From Limnohabitans sp. B9-3 (GTDB lineage Bacteria; Pseudomonadota; Gammaproteobacteria; Burkholderiales; Burkholderiaceae_C): 64,000 bases of DNA. Positions 28,784 to 31,660 of the stretch are shown piece by piece. Numbering within the stretch: the stretch's first letter is position 1; the number at the start of each line of letters is the position of its first letter. Made by a program: the position numbers and the translations under genes. Location of the stretch: positions 62,001 through 126,000 of the forward strand of contig NZ_NESI01000009.1 in the NCBI RefSeq assembly GCF_002778325.1. Direction: 5' to 3'. The notes under the pieces are model-generated. The model made no database searches. It saw nothing but the letters and a program-made list of their open reading frames with translations, and had not been told where the DNA came from.

Positions 28784-28801
28784 TCCTGCATCACTGCAGG
28801 A
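28784..28801 (+). repeat. Perfect hairpin between the dehydrogenase gene and tldD
   Basis: TCCTGCA and TGCAGGA form a 7-bp stem with a TCAC loop, 6 bp after the dehydrogenase stop. There is no T-run, so it is at best a weak terminator or an RNA 3'-end stabiliser. Confidence 0.5.
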
Positions 28802-28817
28802 TGTATTGGTGCGCTCC

Positions 28818-28823
28818 TACAAT
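28818..28823 (+). promoter_or_regulatory. Candidate -10 box 7 nt before tldD
   Basis: TACAAT ends 7 nt before ATG 28831; the spacer CACACCC contains no Shine-Dalgarno. A leaderless-type start is implied. No clear -35. Confidence 0.45.
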
Positions 28824-28830
28824 CACACCC

Positions 28831-30291
28831 ATGATTTCACGCGAACCCACCCTTGAGCGATTGGCCATTGCCCGTCAACTGTTGTTAGAGCCTTTTGGTT
28901 TGGACGAGACGCACTTGGCCCGTACTTTGGCCGAAATCAAGGCCCACCAAGTGGACGAAGCCGATTTGTACTTTCAATACACGCGTTCCGAAGGTTGGAG
29001 TCTGGAAGAGGGCATTGTGAAAACCGGCTCGTTCAGCATTGACCAAGGTGTGGGTGTTCGTGCCGTGAGTGGCGAAAAAACCGCGTTTGCTTATTCAGAC
29101 GACATCTCAGAAGCCTCGTTGCTCGACGCGGCCCGCACAGTGCGCACCATCGGCGCTGCCTCGAAAGGCGGACGCGTCAAAGTGCCTTCGCGCAAAGTGG
29201 CAGCTAGCCGTTCTTTGTACCGTGACCTCGACCCAATTGCCTCACTCGACAGCACCGAAAAAGTGGCCTTGCTCGGCCGTGTGGAGCAAATGGCACGCGC
29301 CAAAGACCCGCGCATCATTCAAGTGATGGCCGGTTTGGCCAGTGAGTATGACGTGGTGATGGTGGTGCGCGCTGACGGCACGCTGGCTGCCGATGTGCGA
29401 CCTTTGGTGCGTCTCAGTGTGTCTGTGATTGCTGAACAAAACGGCCGTCGCGAGTCGGGTTCAGGTGGCGGTGGCGGGCGTTTTGGCTTGACACATTTTG
29501 ATGATGCGCTGGTGCAAAGCTATGTGGACGAAGCTGTGAAATGTGCGTTGACCAACTTGGAAGCACGCCCCGCACCGGCCGGTGAAATGAGCGTGGTGTT
29601 GGGCCCTGGCTGGCCGGGCATCTTGTTGCACGAAGCGATTGGCCACGGTTTGGAAGGTGACTTCAACCGCAAAGGCTCCAGCGCCTTCAGTGGGCGCATT
29701 GGCCAACGCGTCGCCGCCAAAGGCGTGACCGTGCTCGACGATGGCACCTTGCCAGACCGCCGTGGTTCGCTCAACGTGGACGACGAAGGCAACGCCAGCC
29801 AACGCAATGTGCTGATCGAAGACGGCATCTTGAAGGGTTACATCCAAGACAGCATGAATGCGCGCTTGATGGGGGTAAAACCCACGGGCAACGGCCGTCG
29901 CGAGAGCTACGCCCATGTGCCGATGCCACGCATGACCAACACCTACATGCTCGGTGGCGATAAGTCACCCGAAGAAATTGTGTCGAGCTTGAAGAAGGGC
30001 TTGTACGCGGTGAACTTTGGTGGCGGTCAAGTCGATATCACCTCAGGCAAGTTTGTGTTTTCGACCTCCCAAGCCTTTTGGGTCGAGAACGGCAAGATTC
30101 AATACCCCGTCAAAGGCGCCACCTTGGTGGGCAACGGCCCCGATGCCTTGACGCGTGTGAGCTTGATTGGTAACGACATGTCGCTGGACACAGGCGTTGG
30201 CACTTGCGGCAAAGAGGGTCAAAGCGTGCCTGTGGGCGTGGGTCAACCCACCTTGCGCATTGATGGCTTGACGGTAGGTGGCACGGCATAA
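28831..30291 (+). CDS. tldD: Metalloprotease TldD
   Basis: 486-residue zinc protease subunit of the TldD/PmbA family, which in E. coli forms a heterodimer with TldE (PmbA) that processes peptides such as microcin B17 and the CcdA antitoxin. The zinc motif HEAIGHGLEGD is present; other family landmarks are GVGVRAVSGEKTAFAYSDDI, RRESYAHVPMPRMTNTYML and the C-terminal DTGVGTCGKEGQSVPVGVGQPTLRI. I choose ATG 28831 over an in-frame ATG at 28801, which lies before the -10-like box. pmbA is not in this window. Confidence 0.95.
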   Translation: MISREPTLERLAIARQLLLEPFGLDETHLARTLAEIKAHQVDEADLYFQYTRSEGWSLEEGIVKTGSFSIDQGVGVRAVSGEKTAFAYSDDISEASLLDAARTVRTIGAASKGGRVKVPSRKVAASRSLYRDLDPIASLDSTEKVALLGRVEQMARAKDPRIIQVMAGLASEYDVVMVVRADGTLAADVRPLVRLSVSVIAEQNGRRESGSGGGGGRFGLTHFDDALVQSYVDEAVKCALTNLEARPAPAGEMSVVLGPGWPGILLHEAIGHGLEGDFNRKGSSAFSGRIGQRVAAKGVTVLDDGTLPDRRGSLNVDDEGNASQRNVLIEDGILKGYIQDSMNARLMGVKPTGNGRRESYAHVPMPRMTNTYMLGGDKSPEEIVSSLKKGLYAVNFGGGQVDITSGKFVFSTSQAFWVENGKIQYPVKGATLVGNGPDALTRVSLIGNDMSLDTGVGTCGKEGQSVPVGVGQPTLRIDGLTVGGTA

Positions 30292-30364
30292 AGCGGTGCC
30301 AGTCATGCCTCTGCTTGCGAGTAAACCCCAGTGATTTGTCATCAAACTGCCAGATTCCCTGTGC

Positions 30365-30370
30365 TACATT
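30365..30370 (+). promoter_or_regulatory. Candidate extended -10 box of the aroG leader
   Basis: TGCTACATT is an extended -10 (TG-N-TACATT), ending 7 nt before the leader-peptide ATG at 30378. The leader transcript would then start close to its first codon. Confidence 0.45.
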
Positions 30371-30377
30371 TCAATTT

Positions 30378-30446
30378 ATGAGTTCAGCCCGTTTTTATTT
30401 TGCTTACTTTTTTATCTCACGCCCCCACGGCGGTCGAGAGATCTGA
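30378..30446 (+). CDS. Phe/Tyr leader peptide of the aroG attenuator
   Basis: A 22-codon reading frame whose residues 6-12 are F-Y-F-A-Y-F-F: six aromatic codons out of seven (four Phe, two Tyr). It ends with TGA 30 nt before the terminator stem. The codons for H17-G18-G19 contain the antiterminator segment CGGCGGT (30428-30434). This is the standard design of a regulatory leader (as in pheL), where stalling at the scarce codons decides the RNA fold. Evidence is structural only; no ribosome site is seen, in line with a leaderless start. Confidence 0.75.
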   Translation: MSSARFYFAYFFISRPHGGREI

Positions 30447-30508
30447 ACGTAGCCCAAACGCTCTGAACTCCAAAACCAACCGCCGGACCACCCGGCGGTT
30501 TTTTTTTG
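30428..30508 (+). terminator. Attenuator: antiterminator segment and rho-independent terminator before aroG
   Basis: The terminator stem AACCGCCGG (30478-30486) pairs perfectly over 9 bp with CCGGCGGTT (30492-30500), with a 5-nt loop and nine consecutive T from 30499. The upstream segment CGGCGGT (30428-30434) is exactly complementary to ACCGCCG (30479-30485), so the two folds exclude each other. A ribosome stalled at codons 6-12 leaves the upstream segment free (antitermination). A ribosome at the stop codon covers it (termination). Predicted sensor: charged tRNA-Phe and/or tRNA-Tyr. Confidence 0.8.
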
Positions 30509-30550
30509 CCAAATTTCTAGATCACTTTTTTCAAACTTCAGGACGAGACC

Positions 30551-31660
30551 ATGAAAACGAACACCAGCTATCCAAGCCACGTTGAAAACACCAGTCAAAC
30601 CGACGACCAACGTATCAAGGACATCACCGTGCTGCCTCCTCCCGAACATTTGATTCGCTTCTTCCCGATCCAAGACACACCGGTCGAGAAGCTCATCACG
30701 CAGACCCGCAAGACCATCCACCACATCATGAACGGCAAAGACGATCGCCTGTTGGTGGTGATTGGCCCCTGTTCCATCCACGACCCCGCTGCCGCGATTG
30801 ACTACGCGCGTCGCTTGCAACCGCTGCGCGAAAAGTACGCCGACACCTTAGAAATCGTGATGCGCGTGTACTTCGAAAAGCCACGCACAACCGTGGGCTG
30901 GAAGGGTTTGATCAACGACCCGTACTTGGACGAGAGCTTTCGCATTGACGAAGGCTTGCGCATTGCACGCCAGTTGCTGATCGAGATCAACCGCCTTGGC
31001 CTGCCCGCAGGCAGCGAGTTCTTGGATGCCATCAGCCCCCAATACATTGGCGACCTGATTGCGTGGGGCGCGATTGGTGCGCGCACGACCGAGAGCCAAG
31101 TGCACCGCGAGTTGGCCTCTGGCATTTCAGCGCCCATCGGTTTCAAGAACGGCACGGACGGCAACATCAAAATCGCGACCGACGCCATCCAAGCTGCTGC
31201 TGGCGCGCACCATTTCTTGTCGATTCATAAAAACGGCCAAGTGGCGATTGTGCAAACCAAGGGCAACAAGGATTGCCACGTGATCTTGCGCGGCGGCAAA
31301 GCGCCTAACTATGACGCCGCCAGCGTGACGGCTGCTTGCGAAGAGTTGGCCAAAGCCAAATTGCCTGCTTCGTTGATGGTGGATTGCAGCCACGCCAACA
31401 GCAGCAAGCAGCACGAACGTCAACTGGTGGTGGCCAAAGACATTGCCGAACAAATCAGCGGTGGCTCACACCAAGTGTTTGGCGTGATGATTGAAAGCCA
31501 CATTTTGGGTGGCGCTCAAAAGTTCACGCCTGGTAAAGACGATGTGTCGAAGCTGGAATACGGCAAGAGCATCACCGATGCGTGTTTGGATTGGGACGAT
31601 TCGGTCGCTTCGTTGGACGTTTTATCTGAAGCTGTGGCGGCGCGTCGCCAGCGTTCTTAA
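30551..31660 (+). CDS. aroG: 3-deoxy-7-phosphoheptulonate synthase (DAHP synthase, class I)
   Basis: 369 residues. It condenses phosphoenolpyruvate and erythrose 4-phosphate, the first step of aromatic amino acid synthesis. LLVVIGPCSIHDPAAAIDYA, MRVYFEKPRTTVGWKGLINDP, LDAISPQYIGDLIAWGAIGARTTESQ, GFKNGTDG and MVDCSHANSSKQ are class I (AroF/G/H) signatures. ATG 30551 follows AGGACGAG. Expression is likely controlled by the Phe/Tyr attenuator directly upstream. The allosteric specificity (Phe versus Tyr) is not readable with certainty; AroG is used as the general name. Confidence 0.94.
   Translation: MKTNTSYPSHVENTSQTDDQRIKDITVLPPPEHLIRFFPIQDTPVEKLITQTRKTIHHIMNGKDDRLLVVIGPCSIHDPAAAIDYARRLQPLREKYADTLEIVMRVYFEKPRTTVGWKGLINDPYLDESFRIDEGLRIARQLLIEINRLGLPAGSEFLDAISPQYIGDLIAWGAIGARTTESQVHRELASGISAPIGFKNGTDGNIKIATDAIQAAAGAHHFLSIHKNGQVAIVQTKGNKDCHVILRGGKAPNYDAASVTAACEELAKAKLPASLMVDCSHANSSKQHERQLVVAKDIAEQISGGSHQVFGVMIESHILGGAQKFTPGKDDVSKLEYGKSITDACLDWDDSVASLDVLSEAVAARRQRS

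Follow-up and report, generated by a model that had tools for sequence, protein, structure and literature searches.

The aroG gene of Limnohabitans sp. B9-3, which encodes a type I 3-deoxy-7-phosphoheptulonate (DAHP) synthase, is preceded by an element that, judging from its sequence and from its relatives, is very probably a ribosome-mediated transcription attenuator. The element is real, conserved and widespread, and represents a new family of a known kind, that is, a new example of the classical mechanism, not a new mechanism. It combines clustered codons for the end products of the pathway, an intrinsic terminator located between the leader ORF and aroG, and a downstream gene whose product serves the synthesis of the amino acids that the leader encodes (Table 1). 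All coordinates refer to the window, the whole 64,000-nucleotide stretch of DNA that was analysed. Ribosome-mediated attenuation had been proposed in a first-pass annotation of this DNA, and the conserved codons, antiterminator and terminator, together with covariation, support that reading.

Table 1. Predicted parts of the aroG leader and their positions in the window
Feature	Position	Strand	Remarks
Extended -10 promoter element TGTGCTACATT (predicted)	30360..30370	+	hexamer TACATT, 30365-30370
Leader peptide ORF MSSARFYFAYFFISRPHGGREI*	30378..30446	+	22 codons, without Shine-Dalgarno sequence; start ATG 30378-30380, stop 30444-30446
Stall codons F Y F A Y F F	30393..30413	+	codons 6-12; aromatic run kept in 65 of 80 relatives
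Segment 1, AUCUC	30414..30418	+	5' arm of the 1:2 hairpin predicted in the MFE fold; comparative support moderate only
Segment 1 partner, GAGAU	30438-30442		3' arm; the predicted 1:2 hairpin closes around segment 2
Segment 2, antiterminator CGGCGGU	30428..30434	+	perfect 7-nt complement of 30479-30485; conserved, covarying
Segment 3, terminator 5' arm AACCGCCGG	30478..30486	+	
Segment 4, terminator 3' arm CCGGCGGTT and T run	30492..30507	+	arm 30492-30500, T run 30499-30507
aroG, type I DAHP synthase	30551..31660	+	TIGR00034, E 7.5e-162

Six of the seven codons in the stall region of the window leader are aromatic. The terminator, 43 nt upstream of aroG, consists of a 9-bp stem with the loop ACCAC and nine T residues, two of which lie inside the stem, and the complementarity between CGGCGGT and ACCGCCG is exact over 7 nt. 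The first-pass annotation had described the 22-codon frame with its aromatic run, the terminator and the perfect complementarity, and all three were found where it placed them; the position it gave for the antiterminator is likewise correct, but the segment overlaps codons 17-19 rather than codons 16-19. Folding, one of the checks proposed there, favours the leader-terminator region over shuffled sequences (z = -5.3, with none of the 200 shuffles as good). The MFE fold of the window also contains a perfect 8-bp pairing of the start of the leader ORF (30380-30387) with the spacer before the terminator (30463-30470; GAGTTCAG/CTGAACTC). This pairing has one mismatch in the nearest relative and is not kept in the others in alignment A1, and we regard it as incidental, not as a part of the device.

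A joint search for ORFs of at most 40 codons that contain at least six aromatic residues in 8 codons and have an 8-bp terminator with T6 no more than 110 nt downstream returned a single place on both strands of the 64-kb window, the aroG leader; when the window was resampled 20 times under a Markov-1 model, no match was obtained. Of the 80 best-matching aroG relatives, 65 have upstream of aroG a leader ORF rich in Phe, Tyr and often Trp codons (at least five aromatic residues in 8 codons), and nearly all of these 65 possess both the GGCGG segment and a CCGCC...GGCGG terminator. A covariance model built from 38 leaders (R1) and searched in 300 Burkholderiales genomes produced full-length matches in many families; all 69 fetched matches, from about 14 families, are located at aroG, and 68 of them include a readable aromatic leader. 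A second model (R2), built from 52 diverse sequences, matched a single place in each of 81 of these 300 genomes at E<=2e-7; the matches that come next are much weaker and mostly terminator-only. The genera that carry the element include Variovorax, Polaromonas, Acidovorax, Hydrogenophaga, Burkholderia, Janthinobacterium and Xanthomonas. The conservation check set by the first-pass annotation thus came out in its favour: many families keep the leader codons, antiterminator and terminator ahead of aroG, and the paired segments covary.

The combination in question could, in principle, arise from a terminator that merely ends the upstream gene (28801-30291, presumably TldD-like) and an aromatic ORF that is a chance reading frame. 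An intergenic terminator is ordinary, and the upstream gene ends 86 nt before the leader ORF; however, the absence of the combination from resampled sequence and the joint retention of the aromatic ORF, antiterminator and terminator upstream of aroG across many families make this explanation exceedingly improbable.

Searches with the RNA models covered the order and the class of the window organism. Among 281 genomes drawn at the class level, strong matches outside Burkholderiales occurred in four genomes, three from one family and one from another, all at aroG; the leaders of these non-Burkholderiales genomes resemble that of a Xanthomonas locus (L075) that bears the element. No such leader was seen in 45 of the 47 aroG upstream regions of the class that were inspected outside Burkholderiales (L161-L207, except L162 and L165), and none of the strong model matches examined lies at a gene other than aroG. 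Several aroG copies have no recognisable aromatic leader, namely, those in Polynucleobacter (L030, L031, L034), Cupriavidus (L039, L040), Thauera (L057) and Rhodocyclus (L078); such copies may represent losses or paralogues. At one Comamonadaceae locus (L018), the promoter element and terminator are kept ~130-290 nt upstream of aroG, but the leader is poorer in aromatic codons and includes several for His (VRYHFWHFHIQ).

The GGCGG motif encodes Gly-Gly in Comamonadaceae (frame 0), while leaders of the Rubrivivax, Burkholderia and Xanthomonas types read it in frame 2, where it contributes to an Ala codon; in several lineages, the stop codon directly follows it. Because the motif is read in different frames among clades, it is the RNA, not the peptide, that is kept. 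The antiterminator duplex formed with the cognate segment 3 is more stable than that formed with segment 3 of other species (mean -15.9 vs -14.5 kcal/mol, p about 1e-9, a value inflated by shared ancestry), and a shuffled leader yields -10.3 kcal/mol. Antiterminator runs of 8 Watson-Crick pairs are found in 32% of the cognate pairs vs 11% of the swapped ones, and 200 permutations never exceeded 18%. In an alignment of 52 sequences, 96.8% of the terminator pairs are standard, the terminator shows 30 double-sided changes and the antiterminator 18, in each case more than in any of the 500 shuffles or any slide, and one position covaries three ways (U-A-U in 16 of 52, C-G-C in 14 of 52), although these figures are inflated inasmuch as the sequences share ancestry and their independence is overstated. 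Both the comparison of own with swapped segments and the pair counts point to an antiterminator that would exclude the terminator.

The comparative tests of the 1:2 protector stem are mixed. The MFE fold of the window includes a stem of the UCUC/GAGA type, and 4-bp Watson-Crick pairing is seen in 67% of the own pairs vs 39% of the swapped ones; the swap test on duplex energy gave no difference between own and swapped pairs, and local folds of the 1:2 region are no better than shuffles. A protector hairpin is plausible, with moderate support.

That the GGCGG/CCGCC core of the terminator and antiterminator is the most conserved part of the element would also be compatible with a riboswitch or an RNA-binding protein that senses an aromatic metabolite, the leader ORF being secondary. 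We consider this very improbable: beyond the short stems, no aptamer-like structure is conserved, and the features that are kept are the identity of the codons and an uninterrupted frame between ATG and stop. In addition, the window contains no Rfam match at the gathering score, and a relaxed Rfam search of the window gave nothing more than sRNA matches at chance level and a weak match to Phe_leader (RF01859; 15.5 bits, under the gathering cut-off of 55).

Across 127 distinct leaders, Phe codons are present in all, Tyr codons in 123 and Trp codons in 79. The first-pass description of a Phe/Tyr attenuator is accurate with respect to the Phe and Tyr codons of the window leader but does not extend to the family, which is not confined to these two amino acids; the W-containing leaders may sense Trp as well. 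The closest relative (L002, with an AroG 94% identical) has FGYFWFS where the window reads FAYFFIS, so the window leader probably lost a Trp codon. The Phe codons of the leaders are biased towards TTT (66%, compared with 16% in aroG, over 62 loci in the range L001-L081), which may help to leave the stall region unstructured or to slow decoding.

In 39 leaders, including that of the window, the leader ATG follows the end of a -10 hexamer by 6-8 nt, and the hexamer is usually part of TGTGCTACATT; in the window, the extended -10 element ends 7 nt before the ATG. Over all 127 leaders, a -10 hexamer is found 5-9 nt before the ATG in 79, whereas other intervals of the same width contain one in 4-21 leaders; a Shine-Dalgarno-like sequence is hardly ever seen. 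This spacing and the missing Shine-Dalgarno sequence suggest transcription start at, or within 1-2 bases of, the AUG; the aroG leader transcript is predicted to be leaderless, starting at about 30377-30379, at the leader ATG, a feature that the first-pass annotation did not mention. Burkholderia- and Oxalobacteraceae-type leaders have no close -10 hexamer and seem to possess a short 5' UTR.

The 3.4-Mb genome contains three occurrences of the strict promoter-plus-ATG pattern: at the aroG leader, at a phage-integrase-like gene, and at a leucine-rich leader, MQNFSLTLLLLSPNGRSW*, which is followed by a terminator upstream of leuA. When a narrower promoter pattern was searched in 40 genomes of the same family, 40 matches were obtained, compared with 8 for the reversed control; the 28 readable loci that were fetched include 11 aroG leaders and 12 leuA leaders. 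Thus, two unrelated attenuators share this arrangement, which strengthens the case for a leaderless start. The leucine attenuator of leuA in the same genome (G000:C19:181455-181580, minus strand; locus L085/L209) has a terminator of the form GGCCCG...CGGGCC-T and the same type of promoter element, TGTGCTAAATT, 6 nt before the ATG. Its arrangement is repeated in many relatives (among L224-L246), at both kinds of LeuA.

From the anatomy of the element and the covariation, the following sequence of events can be proposed. RNA polymerase would begin at or beside the leader AUG, yielding a predicted leaderless message, and the 22-codon leader would be translated by a ribosome. When Phe- or Tyr-tRNA is scarce, the ribosome would stall in codons 6-12 and cover segment 1, leaving segment 2 free to pair with ACCGCCG of segment 3; this 2:3 pairing would block the 3:4 terminator, and aroG would be transcribed. 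When charged tRNA is plentiful, the ribosome would reach the stop codon and cover segment 2, so that the 3:4 hairpin would form and transcription would end at about 30505-30508. The median distance from the last aromatic codon to the core of segment 2 is 14 nt. The window stop codon lies 10 nt past this core, which fits coverage by the ribosome, as the first-pass annotation had argued from the geometry of stalling and stopping. In many relatives, the stop codon is 16-33 nt beyond the core, a distance at which a ribosome that has reached the stop would give segment 2 poor coverage.

The predicted product of termination, a short leaderless message of about 130 nt, resembles rnTrpL of Sinorhizobium meliloti, for which, as for the peptide peTrpL, action in trans has been reported (PMC7298713). 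An attenuator whose leader peptide or terminated RNA also acts in trans appears unlikely at aroG, given that the peptide shifts frame between clades after the aromatic run and little of its sequence is kept.

Several known systems share individual features with the aroG element. Phe leaders regulate pheA and pheST in Escherichia coli; these enteric leaders (RF01859) likewise combine a Phe-rich leader peptide with alternative antiterminator and terminator hairpins but serve other target genes, whereas the aroG family mixes Phe, Tyr and, mostly, Trp codons. Multivalent attenuators are also found in E. coli, at thrA (Thr and Ile) and ilvGMEDA (Ile, Val and Leu), where, as in the aroG leaders, a single leader combines the codons of several amino acids that arise from one branched pathway; the set in the aroG leader is different, namely, Phe and Tyr, with Trp in most relatives. 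Leaderless leader peptides with measured starts are known for trpL of S. meliloti (PMC7298713) and for several attenuators of Streptomyces lividans (PMC8079986). In both, the message starts at the AUG of the leader peptide, as predicted for the aroG leader from promoter spacing, but other amino acids and other bacterial groups are involved.

A close precedent comes from Corynebacterium glutamicum. In the passages of PMC11802643 and PMC4046766 that report Neshat et al. 2014, the aroR leader (Phe-Tyr-Phe) controls the DAHP synthase gene aroF, with a response to Phe, not Tyr, and stalling that raises transcription under Phe limitation. By this description, the two systems share a leader peptide with Phe and Tyr codons upstream of a DAHP synthase gene, and they differ in that C. 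glutamicum is an actinobacterium with two DAHP synthases, a short F-Y-F run and no effect of Tyr. The expectation of novelty in the first-pass annotation accordingly holds in part: our search of the open literature turned up no account of such an attenuator at aroG in either Betaproteobacteria or Xanthomonas, but attenuation of a DAHP synthase gene, as described for aroR-aroF, has a precedent. Panina 2001 and Vitreschak 2004 reportedly cover gamma- and alphaproteobacteria.

In the genome of the window organism, aroG is the only DAHP synthase gene found; the second PF00793 protein is KDO-8-P synthase, and a search for type II DAHP synthase produced no PF01474 match in the genome. AroG thus appears to be the sole enzyme through which this bacterium enters the synthesis of Phe, Tyr and Trp, whereas a second AroG is present in some relatives.

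A broader proposition, to which we assign even chances, is that Burkholderiales and Xanthomonas-like bacteria share a family of leaderless attenuators in which one peptide reads the supply of Phe, Tyr and Trp to set the level of the DAHP synthase, often the only one, and that, with the leuA leader included, leaderless attenuators would be the rule in Comamonadaceae. Two traits of the family are of note: a single leader can encode all three aromatic amino acids, and initiation is predicted to be leaderless. The element would merit an Rfam family of its own, as none covers the aroG leader. The leaderless arrangement at both aroG and leuA directly raises the question of how translation of attenuator peptides begins in systems other than the enteric model, and many cultured genera bear the element, which makes it testable in existing RNA-seq data. 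The DAHP synthase isozymes of E. coli are controlled by the TyrR and TrpR repressors; as a model for Burkholderiales, entry into the shikimate pathway could be tuned by charged tRNA directly, in place of repressors of the TyrR/TrpR type.
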